64,000 nucleotides of DNA from Erodium maritimum (taxonomy: Eukaryota; Streptophyta; Magnoliopsida; Geraniales; Geraniaceae): NCBI GenBank assembly GCA_963921825.1, contig OY997589.1:75872523-75936522 (forward strand). Direction: 5' to 3'. This document shows positions 1-23,600 of this stretch, piece by piece. Every line of letters starts with the position of its first letter. Within the stretch, counting starts at the first letter, position 1. Below the pieces are notes generated by a model. It was not told the DNA's origin, made no database searches, and saw nothing but the letters and a program-made list of their open reading frames with translations. The position numbers and the translations under genes are program-made.

Positions 1-3000
1 TGATCCTATGACCAAGAACACATTTAGATCAAACTCTATAATACTTGACTCTCATTATCATAATCCCTATTATGATGACAAATATATCAGTTTAATCAAG
101 GACTTATCATATCCAATGTCAATAAACATTCATATATGATAGCAGTAAAAGCCATTATATTAGTCAGCACTAATAAGAAAAACACGATATGAAATGTGCT
201 AAAATAATGTTTCATGAAGATTAACATTTGACTAGAGGCAAACATTCATGAATTTCAATCCTATATTCCACTTGTGCTTGTCAAACTCTTTTGAACCAAG
301 CACCTTAGTGAAAGGACCTGCATCGTTTTCCTTTTCTTCCAACTTCAGAATTTGAACGTCTCCACGTTCAACTATTTCTATAATCAGAAGAAACTTCCGA
401 AGAACGTGATTGGATTTCTGGTGTGCTCTTGGCTCCTTGGCTTGTGCAATAACGGTCGTATTGTCACATAATAAAGGAACACTTTCCTTTACTGAAGGAA
501 CCACACCAAACTCAGTTAAGAACTTCTTTATCCATACACCTTCCTCAGCAGCATCACATGCAGCTATGTATTCTGCTTCGGTTACTGAATTAGCTACGAT
601 AGCTTGTTTGGAACTCTTCCAAATTTCTGTTCCACCATTCAAGGTAAATCATAACCAGAATTAGATTTGCTATCATCCTTATCTGATGCAACACTTGCAT
701 TGATGTGGCTTAACAATTTAAGCTCATTATCTCCATACATGAGGAATTGGTCTTTAGTTCTTCCCGAGCACTTAAGAGTAATTTTAACAACTTTCCAATG
801 CTCCTCACCCGGATTTCCTTGGTACCTACTTGCTACTTCTAGCGTATAGGCAACATCCGGTCTCGTACATGTCATGTTATACATGATAGCTCCTATTGTG
901 TTAATATATGGGTATATACTCATGCGTTCTCTTTCCTCTAGGGTCTTAGGATTATCCTAGAAAGAGAAACTTCAGTTCCAATAGGTAAGTACCCCTTTTG
1001 GGAGTTATCCATGTGATACTTTCTTAAGATAGTATCAATGTACATAGATAAGGAGATCTCAAGCAACTTCCATAATCTATCTCTATAGACCTTGATTCCA
1101 AGAATATAAGTTGCTTCTCCCACATCTATCATGAAGAACTTTTCAGATATCCAAATCTTTGTTTCTTGCATGGCTGACACATCATTTCCTATTAGGAATA
1201 TGTCATCTACATACAACTCTAGGAAAATAATAACGCTCCCACTAACCTTCTTGTACACACATGACTCCTCTTCACAACGCACAAAATCAAACTTTTCGAT
1301 TGTCGTGTGAAAACGAATTTTCCAACTATGAGAAGCTTTCTTTAATCCATAAATGGATCGTTGTAGCTTACATACTTTACTAGGAGCAGATGACAATGTG
1401 AAACCTTCAGGTTGAGTCATATAGACATCTTCCTTGAGCTCGCCATTAATGAAAGCCATTTTCACATCCATTTGTCAAATCTCATAATCATAGTATGCAA
1501 TAATAGCAAGCAAAATCCGAATAGATTTGAGTATTGCTACAGGGGAGAACGTTTCTTCATAATCAATACCTTCCTTTTGATTATACCCCTTAGCAACCAG
1601 ACGGGCTTTAAAGGTTTCAACCTTACCCTGCTCCAATCTTTCTCTTAAAACCCTATTTAAACCCAATAGGTTTTAAGTCCTTAGAGTCATCAACTAAAGT
1701 CCATACTTTATTGATTTTCATTGACTCCATTTCGGATCCCATGGCAGCAAGCCATTTCTCATGGTCTGGACATAGCCATCGCCTCTTGAAAACACTTATG
1801 ATCGTCTTTAATAATAAGGTCATCATCAATATGATTGTCCTCATTATCGTACACTAATAGATTAATCCTATTTTGTGCACGACGTTCTCTAATTGATCTT
1901 CTAGGAGGCTCTTGTACTTCTTGATTCTATTTTTACCCTTGTTCCTGATTTGGTTCATTAACCAAATCATTTACCTCAACGTTTGAGGTTGAAACCCTCG
2001 GTGGCAAATGTAAGACACCAAGAAAAGGTTTCTCAATATGCATCTCATGCTCTTGAGTCGGCGCTGACTCATTGATATCTTGTATTTCATCAAGATCTAT
2101 TTCTACTTCCAGTTCTTCTAACATCAAGGAACTTCTTTTCTAAAAGAAAAGCAGAGTTCCTAGCCACAAATACTTTGTGTTCAGAAGGATGATAGAAACA
2201 GTATCACATAGTCTCATTGGGATAACCAACAAATATGCATTTGTTAGACTTAGCCTCAAGCTTGTCTAATTACAGTCGCTTAACATAGGTTGGACAACCC
2301 TAAACCCTTAAATGTTTAAAGTTAGCTTTCCATCCTTTCCATATCTCATATGGTATTCAAGCAATTGCTTTAGTGGGGATCTTATTTAACAAACATGTAA
2401 CAACCTCTAAAGCATATCCCCATAGGAAGATAGAAAGATCTATAAATCTCATCATCGATCGCACCATATCTAATAAGGTACGAAATCCACTATGATAGGA
2501 TCCCATCTTGTGGCAAATAATCAATAAAATCGTCTACAAGATACTCACCCCCACGGTCAGATCTTAGTGCCTAGATATTCTTACCGGTTTGTTTCTCAAC
2601 TTCACTTCTAAATATTTTGAACATTTCAAATGATTTTGACTTATGTCTCATGAGATATATAAAATCATATCTCGACATATCGTTAGTGAAGGTAAAAAAA
2701 GTAAGAATATCCACCTTTAGCTCGAACTTTTATTGGCACACATACATCAGTATGTATGAGTCCTAAAAGTTCACTAGCTCTTTCTCCAGTTCCAGTAAAA
2801 GAAGATTTTGTCAGTTTCCCAATGAGACAAGATTCACAAGTATCGTATGATTCATAATCATACTACCTAAGGCACACTGCCTTATGCAACTTGTTTACTC
2901 TTTTCTCATTGATATGACCAAGCCTATAATGCCAAAGGTAACCTTGATTTGTTTGATTATTTCACTTCCAATGCTCTTTCTTCTTACAATAGAAACGTCC

Positions 3001-3835
3001 AACATCCCGTTTATCAATGTTCATCTTTAATTTATTGAATGTGTTCATAACAACATTCACAAGTGGAAGCGGTTTTCTCTCAGGCATCGTTTTGCCTCTC
3101 CTTTTACTCTTTAAACATTCATCAATCAAATGCCCAGATCTAGATGCTTCCTTTTCTCGATGTGAATTGTTTTTCATAATTGATCAACATATTGAGCAAT
3201 TCATGAATATCACAATCCACCTTGTTCATGTTAACATTAACATAACAGAAGTATCATCAAGAGACTGCAAGATCAAATCCCGCTATAAGTGTGCATCCTA
3301 CTTCTCAAGTTGCTCTATAAGATCAATTATCTTTAGAACATGGATGCGCACCAACTCATAGAGCTTTAATTCAGACATGAATAGAGACTTAGATATCTGA
3401 TATCTAGCATTCATATTCTGAGACTCCTACATCTTCTCAAGATGTTATATTATTTGTGGTGGATTCATAGTTTCATGTTTCCCTTGAAAGACAAGACTCA
3501 TGGAAGCCAAAATGATGCACTGAGTAGTAGTACTTCGTTCCCAGTACTTCAAGTATACATCTAATGTAACTACAACAGTCATTCCCTTAGTAGGAGCTTC
3601 CATAATGGGGTTATCGATCACATCGATAAGCTTTTCATGAATGAGAACAATTTTAGGGTTCCGGTACCAGTCATATCAAAAAGGTTACTAGACATTTTGT
3701 TAGCATCTAGTATGCCATGCAGAGAAATAGTAGTCATTTCAGAAATTAAGCATAAAGGAAAAACAACAATAGCACAAGCATACATCATTAAGACATGGAC
3801 TTCATCAAAATGATAATACAAACTTTAAAACATGA

Positions 3836-4650
3836 GTGAGCCCCTTGGTAGTCAAGTCGTTTCTCACGCATAATTAAAGTTCTCTTAATTTTATCATATA
3901 AAATCAAAGCTGACTATATACTACATAGTCACCTGGTTGTCAGGTCGGTCCTATTAGTACATTTGAGTTTATCCATCCTTGTGACAGAAAATTAAGTAAT
4001 ATCATACCCTCTGGGTAGTTCAGACTATAAGTATAACATTATATAACTTTTCTTCACACTCGCATCATATACAGTAGAATAAATTAATTTTCTCCAAAAA
4101 TTAATAATATCATACCCTGTGGGTAGTCCAGACTATAAGTATAATGTTAAATAATTTTAATTTCACTTGCATCATATGCAACAGAATATACCATTTCCTC
4201 CCAAAGTTAATTAATATTATACCATCTGGGTAGTCCAGACTATAAGTACAATATTAGATAACTTTCCCTTTCCATTTGCATCATATGCAATCAAAAAGTA
4301 TATTTATCTTTGAACTACAAGTCCCCTGGTAGTCAGGTCGTTCCTTGTAAACAAAAATAAAATTTATACACTTTATACTTTATCATATACAACGGAGGAA
4401 GGAAAAACATTTATCTTTGAACTACAAGTCCCCTGGTAGTCAGGTCGTTCCTTGTAAACAAAAATAAATTTTATTTTGAACTACAAGTCCCCTGGTAGTC
4501 AGGTCGTTCCTTGTAAACAAAATACAGTTTTCTACTTGCATCATATGCAATAGAGAAAAGTAACATTTATCTTTGAACTACAAGTCCCCTGGTAGGCACA
4601 AAAATAAATTTTATTTTGAACTACAAGTCCCCTAGTAGTTAGGTCGTTCC
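3836..4650 (-). repeat. Tandem stem-loop array in the copia leader
   Basis: About nine units occur in 0.8 kb between gag-like sequence and the primer site. Each unit has an outer stem, an asymmetric internal loop (about 3 nt on one side, 6-7 nt on the other), an inner stem of 3-4 bp and a five-base apical loop (GTAGT on the plus strand, once GTTGT). Inner stems read CTTG/CAAG (3844-3856), CCTG/CAGG (3932-3944, 4325-4337, 4432-4444, 4491-4503), CTGG/CCAG (4226-4238) and CCTA/TAGG (4631-4643). Outer stems read GTGAG/CTCAC, ATAG/CTAT, ATAC/GTAT and TACAAG/CTTGTA. One further unit near 4587 is cut short. Confidence 0.8.
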
Positions 4651-4936
4651 TTGTAAACGAAAATCGATATTATTTATCTACTTGGATGGAAAAGCCGTTG
4701 ACAAAATATCTCATATTTTATCAATTAAAACTCAATAATTTTAAAATAAACAACTTCATGTCATTAAAACAATTTTAACAACACTAACGATTATATCGTA
4801 TATAATCGTTAATAATAAAATTGATTATTATCCAATCATGTATACCAAAAAACAATTCTATACTTTGTGTTCATAAAACACACGACCTTGCATCATTAAC
4901 ACATCATCATGCATAAGGTTTATCATATAAAGTACA

Positions 4937-4988
4937 TGTGAAACTTTGAATACACGTGATGAGAAGATGTGTTTGTATTATGTTTATG

Positions 4989-5024
<36 letters not shown>

Positions 5025-5182
5025 AGTCTTACAGCATAATCCACTAATCAAGCTACAGGGTAAATGAGATGAGCCAAAATCAAGGAGCCTAATATAATCA
5101 GATCTTGCTAATTGCTTGCTAATTGATTGTACATAATCAATTGGCAGATTGGTAATTATGGAAAGAATTGATATGGCTAATA
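4937..5182 (-). repeat. 3' LTR of the nested copia element
   Basis: 246 bp, matching 9417-9674 apart from a longer AT repeat (about 4990-5020), a missing 34-bp segment and a few substitutions. On the minus strand the LTR begins TATTAG and ends TTCACA, so its 5' end is not the usual TG. Confidence 0.9.
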
Positions 5183-5194: not shown

Positions 5195-8100
5195 TTCATG
5201 GTCGAGGACGGACATGCAACTTGTCACGAAGAGTAAGGAAATGGTGGTTGCCAACAACTTTAGTGAAAATGTCTCCAGTTTGGTCTAGTGACCGTACATG
5301 ACGAACTATCAGATCACCGGAAGCAACTTGTTCTCGTACAAAGTGGTAATCAATCTTGATGTGCTTTGATCGTTGATGAAAGACTGGATTGGCAGAGAGA
5401 AAAGTGGCAGTTAGATTGTCACATAGTAAGATTGGTGGTTGATGAACTGTTACACTCATTTCAAGTAGGAGTTGTCGAAGCCATATCAACTCAGCGGCAG
5501 CAAATGCAATGGCCCTATATTCGGCCTCAGTGCTTGAGCGAGCCACAACTTTTTGTTTACGTGAGGACCAACTAATAAGGTTACCACCAAAATAAATAGC
5601 AAAACCATGTTGTGACCTGCAATCATCTATATCAGATGCCCATCCAGCGTCAGAGAAGGCAACAAGACGATCATCACGAGCTTTTTGTAGAAGTAGGCCC
5701 AAAGAGATAGTACCTTTGAGATAACGCAAGATACGCTTAACCGCACACCAATGAGACTCTGTGGGGTTGTGCATGAATTGGCAGACCCTGTTCACTGCAT
5801 AAGAGATTTCAGGCCTAGTGATTGTAACATACTGTAATGCACCTACTACACTCCTGTATAGCGCTGGATCTGAAAAAAGGGTGCCAGATGTAGTCAAGCG
5901 AGAGCCAGGATCGGCCAGAGAGGAGATCGGTCGAGCGCCAGACATGTTACTGCGGTCAAGGATGTCACATATGTACTTTTGTTGAGATAATTGGATGGAT
6001 GATTATGTGCGAGAGACCTCTATGCCCAAGAAGTAATGTAGGTCGCCGAGATCTTTGAGGGAAAAGTCTCGGTGCAAAAGTCGAACAAAGTCATTAATAA
6101 ATGAGACATGAGGGCCAGTAATAATAAGGTCATCAACATACACGAGGACATACGTAACACAAGGCCCATACTTCTTGATGAATAGAGAAGGATCTGAGAC
6201 ACAAGGTTTGAACCCATGATGAGTGAAAGAGCATCTCAACTTGTGAAACCAAGCTCTAGGAGCTTGTTTAAGACCGTACAAGGCCTTTCGGAGTTTGCAA
6301 ACATGTTGTGGTTTGTCAGGAGCTATAAAGCCTTGTGGTTTATCCATATAAACTGTCTCTGCAAGATCACCATTAAGGAAGGCATTGTTAATATCAACCT
6401 GTCGAAGACACCAGCCATTAGTTATAGCCAAACTTAAAACAATGCGAACAGTAGTAGGCTTCACAACAGGGCTAAAGGTATCAAAGTAATCGACGCCAGT
6501 CTCCTGATGAAAGCCTTTTGCCACCAGACGTGCCTTATACCGAACAATGGAACCATCAGATTTCTTTTTGACCCTGTTAACCCACTTACAACCAACCACG
6601 TTAGCATCAAATGGATGAGGGACTAAGTCCCAAGCCCCATTTTTCATTAAAGCATCAAATTCTACCTACATAGCATGTTGCCAGTTCGGATTTTTTACAG
6701 CTTGATGGAATAATTTAGGTTCAACATGGGCTGTAAGGGCAATAGGTAAGGGATATTTAGTGGCAGTAAGGGCTTTTGGCTTAAGGGAGTGAGTGGATGA
6801 ACGAGTGATCATGGTATGCGTGGATTTTTCTGGTGGACGAAACCATGAAGGGGCATGTGGGTAGGGAAGAGGTGGAGGTGGGGGCACAGGATGAGCAGGA
6901 GATGATGGTTCCAGGGTTGCAAGGGGTAAAGGGTCCATGGGTGCAGGTGATGAGGCAGGAACAGATCCAGAGGAAGATGTTGACGAAGGGCCTGTACTCG
7001 TATCCAACTGAGGAGATGATGGCATTGATGGCGAAGAAGTTTCAACCAAAGGAATAGATGCTTGTTGGAGCAAGGACAAAGGGGCATAGTCTGGAGAGTG
7101 AGATTCAGTCAAGACTGATGGTGAAGAGTGGGACGGATAAGGAAAGACTGACTCATCGAATATGACATGCCGAGCAATATATGTGCGAGATGTAGGAACA
7201 TGTAGACACACATACCCTTTATGTTTAGGGCTGTACCCCAAAAAGACGCAAGGTAAGGACCTGTACTCCAACTTGTTATGATTGTAAGGACGCAGGAATG
7301 GGTAGCATAAACATCCAAAAGACTTGAGAAACCCATAATCTGGTGATCTGTTATACAAACATTCAAACGGGGATTTAAACCCCAAAACTGGTGTGATGGT
7401 GCGATTTATGAGATAAACAGTGGTATGAAAAGCTTGTTGCCAAAATTTGATCGGTACATGAGAGTGGGCGAGCAAAGCAAGGCCTTTTCAACAATATCCC
7501 GATTATGACGCTCAGAGGAACCGTTTTGTTCTGGGGTAGAGGGACAAGATACCCTATGACCTATGCCCTTGGTGTCAAGAAATGTAGAGACCTTGCGATA
7601 CTCGCCACCCTAATCCGATTGAAAGGATTTGACCTGAGTAGAAAATTGAGTTTGGATTAGTTGGAGAAATAATTGCACAATAAAGAGAACTTGTGATTTA
7701 TGAGATAGGAAATATATCCAAATAAATTTTGTGCAATCATCAATAAAACTAACATAATAACGACACCCAGTAGTGGATATATGAGGAGAAGCACCCCAAA
7801 CATCAGAGTGAATTAGATCAAAGGGATTAGGAGACTTCTCATGCCTTCTTGGCAAGGGTAATCTGTGACTTTTACCAAGTTGACATGAGCCGCACACAGA
7901 GTCCAATTTATTACATGATACGGGCAATTGCCGACTAGAAACTAAACGACGTAAAACAGTTTCATGAGGATGAGCTAGACGATGATGCCAACATTGAAGA
8001 GATGTGCGTTCTCCGAGATAGGCAACACGAGGAGTAGGATGAGGTGGAGCATGAGGACGAGGGAGACGGTGAAGGCCATTCTCAACAGTTCCTCTTAGCA

Positions 8101-9405: not shown

Positions 9406-9416
9406 GGCTGATACCA
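9406..9416 (-). other. Primer binding site of the nested copia element
   Basis: The minus strand reads TGGTATCAG immediately after the LTR, the initiator tRNA-Met complement. Confidence 0.8.
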
Positions 9417-9674
9417 TGTGAAACTTTGAATACACGTGATGAGAAGATGTGTTTGTAATATGTTTATGGAGATATATATATACACAAGTCTTACAACATA
9501 ATTCACTAATCAAGCTACAGGGTAAATGAGATGAGCCAAAATCAAGAAGTCTAATATAATCAGATCTTGCTAATTGATCGTACAAAATCAATTTACTTGC
9601 TAATTGCTTACTAATTGATTGTACAGAATCAATTGGCAGATTGGTAATTATGGAAAGAATTGATATGGCTAATA
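9417..9674 (-). repeat. 5' LTR of the nested copia element
   Basis: 258 bp. The minus strand runs from TATTAGCC to TTTCACA. The target duplication GTACA follows on the plus strand at 9675-9679. Confidence 0.9.
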
Positions 9675-16713: not shown

Positions 16714-17033
16714 TGTATTCTTTGTCTTGGGTCTGCGTACCCTCATTTGCACCCCAGTGTGGGTTTGGTCCTTGTGTTGCTGATTTCAAGTTCTTCCCCG
16801 GCTTGATTGCTGGAGTTTGTGGTCTGTTTTCTTTGTTCCCCCATGATGATTGTTGCGTCCTTCTAGGGCTTTTGAAGTCTGTAGTCAGACTTGTGTATTT
16901 CTCCTCTTTCGTCTTGTAAGAGGTTTCATTTATAACAAAAAAGAGAAAATATTGCCGATAAAAAAATGTATATGTGTATATAAACACATATCAACAATTA
17001 AATCTATTTCACATATGATTTAAACGCAAAAGC

Positions 17034-17050
17034 CCAAGGCTCTGATACCA
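17034..17050 (-). other. Primer binding site, initiator tRNA-Met type
   Basis: The minus strand reads TGGTATCAGAGCC two bases inside the LTR. This is the standard initiator tRNA-Met complement of plant copia elements. Confidence 0.85.
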
Positions 17051-17052
17051 AT

Positions 17053-17433
17053 TGAAGGATCGAAAAACATCATATGTTCGCAGCGGAATAAAAGGATTCG
17101 ATCCAAAACGATCTATTTGCATTTGAATCAATGATAAAATTAATAGGTTTACTTACTTGATATGTAGAACAAATCCGATATAGCTCCGAAAGTACGAAGC
17201 CTCTAGTGTATTCACACCGAGCAACGATTTGATGCTTTCAACCTTTGAGGTGACAATGGAGGAAGAACGATTCTTCATTGTTGATTTTGGGAGAGAAGAG
17301 AAAAAGGAGGCTACTAGAGAATAAGATGATTAATCTTTTCTAAACCTAATTTTCTCTTAATATACTATAAAGTATATTGGGCCTAAAACTCAATTGGGCT
17401 TTAAACCCGATTGGGCCTAGGGCAAGCCCAACA
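17053..17433 (-). repeat. 5' LTR of the old copia copy
   Basis: On the minus strand it runs from TGTTGGGCTTGCCC to CTTCA, so it has TG...CA ends and is 381 bp long. It is followed directly by the primer site. Its partner LTR is outside the window. Confidence 0.75.
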
Positions 17434-17760
17434 AACCCTCCTCCTCCATGGTTTTGGGAAGAGACCACCACAGAGTTGAGTCTCCTCGTTCCATCCCTCG
17501 AACCTACCGAAACAAAATCTTTCTCAAGTGTCCCTTTTCTCAAATCTTCAAACCCAGGTGGCGGGCCGCCGATAGATGAAGACGTCGTTGATTCAAATTC
17601 CACGGTGGTCCGATGATCTGAAAAGATCACCCTGAACACTACACCAAAGATGATCAAACCCAGCTCAGATGAGGAATCTTGGAGATTGGAGCAAGAACTT
17701 TAGAAGTTCATCCTCAACACTGTAGCAAGTTGAGAGAAAAATGGGGTTGACTAATTCTTC
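17434..17760 (-). other. Possible LINE ORF1 relic
   Basis: A short minus-strand open stretch contains GGPPPGFED, like the GPPPGFEE word in the ORF1-like region of the LINE at 35.8 kb. The copia LTR ends here, so this may be older retroposon sequence that the copia copy entered. Weak evidence. Confidence 0.3.
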
Positions 17761-20637: not shown

Positions 20638-23600
20638 GTCACGCCCCAATTTTAGTAAACCGAACTCGGGACGCGAACATTTAAAATAATAAAATATTTT
20701 GAAACCCTTTTCATAGATCACTTTAAAATCACCGTTTGCTCAACAAAATAATATTTACAACTCAAAATCAGTCCCAATAAGTGGACAAAAACATGGTATA
20801 CGTCGCTAGACTCAAAATAAACCCAGAATCCCGCTTCTAGCTCTTCAAGCTTCAGAAGCTCACCTAGTCCAGCCTGCGAACGGTACCTGTAGGAAAAGCA
20901 GCTAGGGGTGAGCGTTCGCTCACCACCACGGATAACAGACTGACTACGGCATAATTAGCAGACAATGCCGGTAACACCAACAACAACTCAACACCGGGGA
21001 ACACTATCCCCAACCCAAGTACTCCGACTGAACACACACCCACTGTTACCTTCCTTGACCAACTCAACACTCTGACACGTAAAGTAGACCCGGCACAACG
21101 ATCACGACCCCTTCCAAGGACTCAAAAGACCACCACGCAACACCCAAGATCACAAAGGATCGCACACCAAACAAGATCACAAAGGATCGCATACCAGCTG
21201 CCATCTGCTCAGTGCCAAAGAACGCTCGCAACCTCCCGAGACTCTAACTCGGTCAGGCCAGCCCAAGAACGCTCGCAACCTCCCGAGACTCTAACTCGGT
21301 CATGCCAGCCAAAGAACGCTCGCAACCTCCCGAGACTCTAACTCGGTCAGGCCAGCCAAAGAATGCTCACAACCCCAAACCACACACGCGCGACCAGGAC
21401 CCCTTTCTTGTCGGGCGGGCCCCCTACCCCGTCTGAACATGCAGACGCGTGTGCTCGTGGACCCCCGTTTCATGAAGCGGGCCCCCAACCTCAGGTAACC
21501 ACAATCACAATCACAAGCAAGTTCAACACTCACAGGCACACATGGCCACCCAAGACACCAACAGTATAACTCGGACTCAACAGCCCCACAGGCACTCACG
21601 GCCTCCCAAGATACACCAACAGTAACTCACGGGCTCAACAACCCCACGGGCACTCACGACCACTTAAACCACCAACAGTAACTCACGGGCTCAACAACCC
21701 TACATGCACTTGCGGCCTCTCAAAACCACCGACAGTCACTCACGGGCTCAACAACCCCATAGGCACTCACGACCTCCCAAGACACACCAACAGTAACTCA
21801 CGGGCTCAACAACCCTACAGGCACTCGCGGCCTCCCAAGACACACAAACTGTAACTCACGGGCTTAACAACCCTACAGGCACTCACGGCCTCCCAAGACA
21901 CACCAACAGTAACTCACGGGCTCGACAACCCTACAGGCACTCGCGGACTCCCAAAACACCAAAGGTAAAGACGCGGGTTCAACAACCCCACGGGCACTCA
22001 TGGCCACCAAAAACTCAACAATAATAGCACGGGCTATCAAGGCCACCCAATACTCAACAATAATAGCACGGGCTCTCAAGGCCACCCAAGACTCAACAAT
22101 AATACACGGGCTCTCAAGGTCACCCAAGACTCAACAATAATACACGGGCTCTCAAGGCCACCCAAGACTCAACAATAATACACGGGCTCTCAAGGCCACC
22201 AAGGACACCAACAATAAAACACGGGCTCTCAAGGCCACCCAAGACACCAACAATAATACACGGGCTCTCAAGGCCACCCAAGACACCAACAATAATACAC
22301 GGGCTCTCATGGCCACCCAAGACATAAATTAAACAGTCAACCTCCGGGCATGGTCATATGCCTCCAGTAATTCTAATATCGCTAGGTTCTCTGCTCCTAC
22401 GACACTGCTAAGTGTCACATGCTTTTCTAATATTCGCTACGTTCCCGTATCATGCTTTTCTAATATTTAAATAAACCTACTCAACCTACGACACCCCGGT
22501 GTCACATGCAATTCTACTGTTAACTTTCCCTAGTCAGGGCCGAGATCCGGCTACTTTTCCCTACCTCGTGCGTGTTCTCCAAAAGCCAACCAACAAGCTC
22601 CGGTGTGATCTCAGTCACTCACCCAACTTTCCCTTGCTTCGGTCCGTGGCACCATCTAAAAGAACACAATTTAAGGCACTTAACAACTCGCAGGAATAAA
22701 CTGAAAATCATTAAACTTGATGCCCAAACTTAACCCCGACAATGTCGATCACTCCCAAACTCCCCAAATACTCGACATTGTCGATAAGGGACCCGTAAAG
22801 GCCCGATTCGCCCGACATGGCGAATCTGCCCGGGTTTTGTAAATGCCCTTTCGGGGCTCCAAAAATTCCCGTTTTTGTTTCTACGGTGTTAGAATAATTC
22901 AAGGGTCCCAATGCACTTGACGGAATCGAATTCCAACTTCCGAGTCAATTAATTGACGTTTAAAGTTTCTAAACCCGATAATTACAACTTCTCCAATTTA
23001 ATTCCAAATTTCGATTCGGTTAAGGATAAAAGGTCCGGGGAACGTTTTAAACCACCCGAGCACTAAACCCGAGCACCCGAGCACGTGGGACCCACCCGAC
23101 CCACTTGGCCATGGGACCTAGTGTTCAAAGTGGGGCACGGCCACCATGGTGGTGGCTGGTCCCAGCTCCGGCCAACCACCACCCACGGTGGCCGGAGCTC
23201 CTCCCGAGCTTCCAGTCACCGGAAAACGTCATATTTCGACTCCAAACACCTCCAAAACGTCTCCAACAATTCCCCCAACCTCAACACACCCTAAACTAAT
23301 AGTTTTACATAAACCCTAACTTCCAAAAATTATCAAAACGAGAATCGGTTCGGTGTATACCGTAGAGGAGAACAAGGGGAGTGCACTTCCTCCTAGCCTT
23401 GAGACGATCCAATGGATGGAGATGACGTGAATAGTAGCCCCAACCCTAGCAACCTTCTTCTCTCTTCTTCTCCTTCTCCTTCTCTCTCTAACTCTTTCTC
23501 TCTCTTTTTCTCTTTTTTTTCTCTTTTTAATTGTGCTAGCCGATCCCCCCTTATGCCTCCATCTCTCATTTTCCCCCCAAAACCTAACACCACCACTTGG

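Follow-up and report, generated by a model that had tools for sequence, protein, structure and literature searches.

An array of two-tier hairpins in the leader of a copia family from Erodium maritimum, a candidate signal for packaging or dimerization of genomic RNA

The hairpin array and the element that carries it

The window analyzed in this study is a stretch of 64,000 nucleotides from Erodium maritimum (assembly GCA_963921825.1, contig OY997589.1), and the first copia element within it lies on the minus strand and includes a reverse transcriptase piece matching Pfam RVT_2 (E 6.1e-37). Directly upstream of the gag ATG of this element in the sense reading, where its leader ends, we found an array of hairpins at positions 3832-4655. 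The sense strand of the window contains nine complete two-tier hairpins and one truncated copy, and the core pattern, with at most three mismatches allowed, was matched six times in the window compared with not once in 100 shuffles. An initial annotation of this DNA had proposed about nine repeats at this place, and the units identified here, which lie far beyond chance, agree with that count. In the order of the window, the hairpins are as follows.

3832-3871, minus strand: type C hairpin; outer helix ATGCGTGAG/CTCACTCAT (one mismatch), inner CTTG/CAAG, loop ACTAC
3886-3904, minus strand: small hairpin GATTTTAT...ATAAAATY between C and D, read from the sequence
3918-3960, minus strand: type D hairpin; outer TACTA-ATAG/CTAT-G-TAGTA, inner CCTG/CAGG, loop ACAAC
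3997-4041, minus strand: type B hairpin, slot B3; 12-bp outer helix, loop ACTAC, one mismatch in the inner stem
4105-4149, minus strand: type B hairpin, slot B2; both helices imperfect
4212-4256, minus strand: type B hairpin, slot B1; 12-bp outer helix, loop ACTAC
4316-4349, minus strand: type A hairpin; TACAAG-GAACGA-CCTG-ACTAC-CAGG-GGA-CTTGTA, plus a further outer tier
4423-4456, minus strand: type A hairpin; core identical to that at 4316-4349
4482-4515, minus strand: type A hairpin; core identical to that at 4316-4349
4579-4599, minus strand: truncated type A unit
4622-4655, minus strand: type A hairpin; inner pair exchanged to CCTA/TAGG

In sense orientation, a type A unit thus reads TACAAG - GAACGA - CCTG - ACTAC - CAGG - GGA - CTTGTA, with a further tier outside it, and type B has a 12-bp outer helix with TATAGT, CTGG - ACTAC - CCAG and AG. 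Type C reads GTGAG - AAACGA - CTTG - ACWAC - CAAG - GGG - CTCAC, and type D reads TACTAATAG - GACCGA - CCTG - ACAAC - CAGG - TGA - CTATGTAGTA. The stems listed in the initial annotation were all recovered, including CCTG/CAGG and its counterpart CCTA/TAGG, and the outer helices proved longer than had been noted: they extend to as much as 12 bp in B and to about 9 bp in C and D, and A has a third tier. The apical loop, described as fixed, is GTAGT (forward strand) in eight of the nine window units but GTTGT in the ninth. The internal-loop word, likewise described as fixed (TCGTTC, TCGGTC or TCGTTT), is found in types A, C and D, which account for six of the nine units, whereas the three B units carry ACTATA in that place. 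Stems do change in step as had been proposed, chiefly from one type to another (A, B, C or D) and at individual pairs within a slot, but the outer stems of the A units are plain copies. Arms are exchanged with pairing kept, although the inner stem is imperfect in two of the three window B units.

Small hairpins of the form TTGCAT-ATG-ATGCAA stand between the large units at window positions 4167-4181, 4276-4290 and 4536-4550, and other copies have 0 to 4 of them; the TTGCAT/ATGCAA hairpin was also seen near gag in two elements of a second copia family described below (L053 and L056). A hairpin at the gag start, GAAATG-ACTAC-TATTTC, has the tip of the array units in the window but folds weakly (z -0.96 in the version tested), and its tip or arms are altered in other copies; we treat it as a chance effect of the coding ATG ACT ACT and not as a unit of the array. 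A K-turn was rejected by the usual K-turn rules: GA flanks the internal loop of type A on either side, whereas type B lacks it and type C has it on one side only. Pairing of the tip with a nearby GTAGT was seen beside A and D units only and is therefore not general.

The window element is broken and split, a second copia having inserted within its leader. Positions 16975-17434 are most likely the rest of this leader, together with the primer site TGGTATCAGAGC and the end of the long terminal repeat (LTR). The landmarks of the element outside the array are the following.

938-1474, minus strand: reverse transcriptase piece (Pfam RVT_2) of the same element as the array
3735-3737, minus strand: gag start codon; gag is broken further downstream
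4641-4839, minus strand: leader at and upstream of the last A unit, up to the nested second copia; matches the leaders of copies L049 and L046
17039-17050, minus strand: primer binding site TGGTATCAGAGC, most likely that of the window element, displaced by nested insertions
17151-17161, minus strand: predicted 5' splice donor ATCAA/GTAAGT in the LTR end, position fixed among copies

The nested second copia has a reverse transcriptase piece at 6003-6665, and a repeat pair at 4935-5182 and 9415-9674, about 80% alike, probably represents its LTRs. Staggered internal tandem repeats occupy 20638-22370, and the same stretch was found upstream of the array in copy L046. A scan of the whole window on both strands with the models of Rfam 15 at gathering score, self-cleaving ribozymes included, gave no matches.

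Copies in the host genome and the pairing of their stems

A search of the host genome (763 Mb) with the 18-base core of the A unit returned 274 exact places, and its reversed control none. We fetched 20 further copies of 9.9 kb each, these being the first listed exact A-core matches on one contig; A cores are thereby ascertained by the choice of copies, whereas B, C and D units are not. The window and these copies were searched without gaps, which yielded 73 A, 48 B, 16 C and 17 D units; units with insertions or deletions escape such a search, among them the D unit of L045 and the window's truncated A. All four types were present in 15 of the 21 leaders, in the order A (two to five), B (two or three), D, C, with 6 to 12 units in total; L045 showed no D by this search, and L038, L039, L042, L043 and L048 had A only, or A and B. 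The ACWAC tip was kept in 142 of the 154 units (ACTAC in 105 and ACAAC in 37; the other 12 have a different tip). In L051 (5271-5690, sense), a 152-base block with one B and one D occurs three times in tandem, which brings that leader to 12 units and reads as growth of the array by duplication of a unit pair.

The primer site TGGTATCAGAGC, which next to an LTR we take to be of the tRNA-Met type, was found with no or one mismatch upstream of the array in 15 of the 20 copies and was not found at up to one mismatch in the other five. By word search, the gag start was located downstream of the array in 11 of the 20 copies as well as in the window. A primer site upstream and a gag start downstream mark the region as a leader, and the proposed position of the array between the two holds wherever both landmarks could be located. 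Unpaired stems in other copies had been named as evidence that would speak against selection on structure; the other copies keep their stems. Two loci, L054 and L055, proved to consist largely of other insertions. Viral contigs gave no matches to the exact pattern, and the same pattern occurred at two places in genome contigs, both in bacterial metagenome-assembled genomes with one match each, which we took for chance.

Seven representative array units fold with z-scores of -2.2 to -4.9 against dinucleotide shuffles, and representative units from another copy gave -4.91 for A, -3.99 for B, -2.46 for C and -4.02 for D. In a set of twelve units of types A, C and D, pairing holds in 90.2% of cells, compared with 74.3% in shuffles. 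Changes on both sides between these types affect 26 cells, where shuffles give 8.4 ± 2.6 (none of 500 as high) and slid structures 0-7. An alignment of the B-D-C region was made from 15 copies, with L051 left out for its tandem duplication and pairs drawn on L036. Four structural column pairs vary there on both sides by shared alleles, and three of these four pair in every shared haplotype, compared with 45 of 690 comparison column pairs (Fisher p 0.0012).

Slot C could be followed at 93 genome places with an intact core, where its pair is G-C in 33, G.U in 27, A-U in 31 and A.C in two; under column independence, 12.4 A.C would be expected. Among places linked to reverse transcriptase matches, which were typed from 107 of 150 rows, open frames of at least 300 amino acids accompany 16 of 18 G.U copies, 6 of 22 A-U copies and none of 19 G-C copies, and the two A.C copies are unlinked. 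The pair state therefore follows lineages, with the wobble mainly in long-frame copies. In slot B (119 places), all 51 of those given with letters among the matches listed keep the pair, 30 as C-G and 21 as T-A, counts that partly reflect two different slots.

Watson-Crick arms serve both strands equally, and the initial annotation had named both RNA and cruciform DNA as the possible target of selection. The sense strand folds to a lower energy than the antisense strand in 149 of the 154 units; part of this is composition, as shuffled units show the same. The difference between sense and antisense energy is -5.20 in A compared with -2.35 in shuffles, -6.88 with -2.11 in B, -4.33 with -1.39 in C and -0.39 with +2.48 in D, and in 180 control windows of the upstream leader it is -3.56 with -3.33. 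Beyond composition, the sense excess comes to 2.9, 4.8, 2.9 and 2.9 kcal/mol for A, B, C and D, respectively, and to 0.2 in the control. The distinct units in this test number 61 A, 32 B, 9 C and 12 D (114) and are non-independent, such that the result is to be read as four of four types in the same direction. Because sense folding exceeds composition in the array types and not in the rest of the leader, sense RNA is favored over cruciform DNA.

Several results weigh against selection on pairing, or narrow its basis. Pairs changed on both sides are raised only modestly (6 compared with 4.1, a count reached in 12 of 500 shuffles), and the number of further pair types shows no rise (10 compared with 11.5 in shuffles, 455 of 500 as high). 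The fourth column pair of the B-D-C alignment, in slot B2, has shared C.A and T.T, and a neighboring pair has shared T.C. Units within a type are near-identical and the twelve rows of A, C and D units come from three unit lineages, so that independent events are few and the independent evidence amounts to a handful of lineages; moreover, the structures were drawn from the same sequences on which they were tested. Only 44 of the 114 distinct units fall within the 5% tail of their own shuffles (A 18 of 61, B 20 of 32, C 2 of 9, D 4 of 12), with 13 of 180 for the control windows. In 120-nucleotide windows, the mean z is -1.70 for the array and -1.29 for coding sequence in the window copy, and -2.58 and -1.45 in L036; array and coding sequence separate poorly by this measure, and such z-scores are not used as support. 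Finally, shared pair types comprise 14 G.U and one A.C, an excess that is not conclusive and on which we do not lean because A/G polymorphisms outnumber C/T in the region by 36 to 16. Selection on RNA structure in the array is nevertheless well supported: structure is kept by compensatory change, as looked for in a packaging or dimerization signal, with a limited number of independent changes.

A predicted leader intron and the possible roles of the array

The leader is predicted to be an intron. A donor, ATCAA/GTAAGT, stands in the LTR end about 105 nucleotides before the primer site in all 15 copies with a primer site, and a T-rich stretch before gag ends in TATAG or TACAG in 10 of 16 copies. 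In other copia families of the host, TGTTGTAG or TTGTTGTAG followed by ATC(AA)ATG precedes gag in all three leaders that reach it. The span from donor to acceptor measures 1,461 to 1,818 nucleotides and has 55-76 ATGs (38 per kb) and a T fraction of 0.38 in seven copies; in these copies, the 140 nucleotides before the donor have 5 ATG per kb and T 0.31, and the first 700 nucleotides of gag have 46 ATG per kb and T 0.32. These counts exclude L036, L040 and L041, whose upstream sequence is altered, and copies missing one landmark. Set against the intron are the loss of the acceptor AG in 6 of 16 copies, the window copy included, and the donor match in the window, which taken alone is no more than chance; conservation of the donor is weak evidence by itself because the whole LTR end is conserved.

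We propose that the array is a cis-acting signal on the unspliced genomic RNA of this copia family, lying within the probable leader intron and serving packaging or dimerization, and we assign this reading a probability of just under one half (about 0.48). The array would present many bipartite hairpins, each with a five-base ACWAC tip on a short inner helix, which an asymmetric internal loop separates from the outer helix. Splicing would remove the primer site, the array and nearly all upstream AUGs, leaving a short leader in which the gag ATG is first or nearly first, and the product would act as the gag-pol message; unspliced RNA would retain the primer site and the array and act as the genome. 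Gag may bind at the repeated tips, or an RNA partner may do so during dimerization, and unspliced RNA would thereby be selected for packaging. The sequences themselves show where the array lies, that pairing persists as the sequence changes, that several lineages carry it and that two further families have comparable units; the intron is a prediction, and Gag binding and packaging are inferred.

A lineage with a dead gag bears on the choice of role. Copies L033, L034, L035, L047 and L049 are 97.6-99.4% alike over the B-D-C region and, together with L037, share two one-base gaps, one inside gag and one just before its ATG; in the gag frame, most stops fall at codons common to all six. The shared gaps and stops indicate that this lineage multiplied with a dead gag, i.e., as a non-autonomous one. 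The five similar copies nevertheless keep A, B, D and C units, and the slot C pair is A-U in each; L047 and L049 have single later changes elsewhere in the type C unit. We prefer packaging because retention of the array in a dead-gag lineage fits a cis signal read by Gag supplied from elsewhere better than it fits a device by which an element translates its own gag. An early stop is present in all 12 leaders with a gag start found, which makes this sample uninformative on live copies; long open frames exist elsewhere in the family. The initial annotation had placed the selection in the past life of the family. It was not confined to the past, as closely similar copies, which must have multiplied recently, keep their stems.

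The strongest rival to packaging, which we consider unlikely, is that the hairpins control splicing, restraining or shaping the leader intron and thereby leaving a part of the RNA unspliced, with pairing selected for intron retention and not for Gag binding. The array does occupy the 3' half of the predicted intron, near the acceptor. Hiding a splice site, however, needs no repeated, nearly fixed tip, and the array is present in the six of 16 copies in which the acceptor AG is lost.

Less probable still is an origin as ordinary inverted repeats, in which tandem duplication and template switching at palindromes would remake perfect arms without selection. Such a process would account for the A units, which are plain tandem copies and number two to five among copies with all four types, and for the tandem duplication of B plus D in L051. 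Template switching gives Watson-Crick arms, yet 27 of 93 C slots have G.U, mostly with long frames (16 of 18 linked); in addition, arms vary around a tip that is kept, as the internal loop is in types A, C and D, and other families have different multi-tier hairpin units.

A translation device, such as an internal ribosome entry site or a ribosome shunt that brings ribosomes to gag past the AUG-rich leader, appears improbable. Plain scanning of the unspliced RNA cannot work because of the 55-76 leader ATGs counted in seven copies, and this speaks for such a device, but the predicted intron would remove the upstream AUGs and the array is kept in a lineage with many shared gag stops. A role in leader translation, one of those offered by the initial annotation, is accordingly disfavored.

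An enhancer has reportedly been proposed in the leader of Drosophila copia. The least probable reading, an element acting at the DNA level as palindromic enhancer boxes or cruciforms, can point to the clustering of the palindromes and to the Sirevirus LTR palindromes, for which a role of this kind has been proposed (PMC2829016), but protein-binding palindromes keep their arm sequence, whereas here arms vary and tips are kept, and the sense strand folds better than composition predicts.

Other copia families and known systems

Two further copia families of the host genome were reached through reverse transcriptase matches of 56-59% identity, and a few of their leaders were compared (L053, L056 and L058 for the second family; L059 and L060 for the third). 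The gag of the second family matches Retrotran_gag_2 (E 2.1e-16). The leader of L056 contains four units (z -3.0 to -4.1) in which an outer tier is followed by a 9-bp helix (CTATGTGTA/TGCACATAG), a bulge of two bases and TTACGC-CAAA-GCGTGG; in one of them the helix is exchanged to TTGTGTGTA/TACACACAA. L053 has one such unit, and L058 has none within the fetched stretches. Across five units, three pairs are changed on both sides compared with 1.0 in shuffles (24 of 500 as high), which is weak evidence alone. The unit core of this family occurs at 154 genome places. A 28-base tandem repeat (TTGTATGATAGTAACATGCTTAGGCYG), not obviously a hairpin, was also seen in second-family leaders (L053 699-790 and L058 about 620-710).

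In the third family, L059 has two units (z -3.3 and -3.5) that share the core TGTCGTGCGCATTAGCGGAGCA but differ in their outer arms, and L060 has three small hairpins with TTGGA-like tips, two of which are no better than shuffles. This is probably a very abundant copia family with a two-unit leader. Its unit core is found at 7,668 exact genome places and, among the matches listed, is often paired 65 bases apart; a reversed copy of the family was found in L057. As far as can be read from these leaders, each family has a tip of its own, and the architecture is alike while the sequence differs. A wider proposal, which we hold tentatively and with the odds against it, is that plant copia families carry family-specific packaging codes in the form of bipartite hairpin arrays, each with its own tip, in a leader intron together with the primer site, such that packaging and reverse transcription would both be open to unspliced RNA alone, and non-autonomous relatives would retain the code of the helper that packages them.

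How plant retrotransposons choose RNA for packaging is poorly known, and a repeated hairpin whose stems are exchanged and whose tips are kept is a concrete candidate signal that can be searched for in other families. The array also makes the split between message and genome testable, and would offer a handle on dead elements parasitizing live ones. A literature search, with most subscription journals outside its coverage, found no description of an array of this design.

Packaging and dimerization structures in the leaders of retroelements are of an established kind, according to the accessible parts of two reports (PMC5454406, PMC5035971). The Diaspora element of soybean resembles the present family in its long leader, predicted splice donors in the LTR and acceptors around the gag start, but it is a Ty3-gypsy element, and the words leader, stem, hairpin and tandem repeat are absent from the text available for it (PMC1142308). 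Sirevirus elements are alike in having clusters of palindromes within non-coding parts of plant copia elements; in the portion of the report available, however, their motifs are placed within the LTR, before the TATA box, or by env, and the core is mostly CGG-CCG (PMC2829016). The array described here lies in the leader and has variable arms and kept tips, and a core of the Sirevirus type (CGG, then CCG within 12 bases) was found in none of the 154 units, which sit in the leader and not in the LTR.

The gag-less BARE2 of barley, which is said in the available text to retain packaging signals, is a known parallel to the dead-gag lineage; BARE1, in contrast, splices a 104-nucleotide intron just after gag and not in the leader, and that text describes no hairpin array (PMC3735527). 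TIPIRT of yeast Ty1 is likewise an RNA structure at the 5' end of an LTR element that serves packaging and dimerization and is backed by compensatory mutations, but, as far as the accessible text goes, it consists of a pseudoknot and two hairpins with complementary 7-nucleotide tips, whereas the tips here are nearly all alike and not self-complementary (PMC5454406). Retroviral psi and dimerization signals are alike in being structured RNA of the 5' leader, and the part of the report available states that retroviral Gag selects unspliced RNA (PMC5035971). Unlike these signals, the leaders with all four types described here repeat a small hairpin 6-12 times with stems exchanged, the tips are putative Gag sites, and the predicted donor lies upstream of the primer site.
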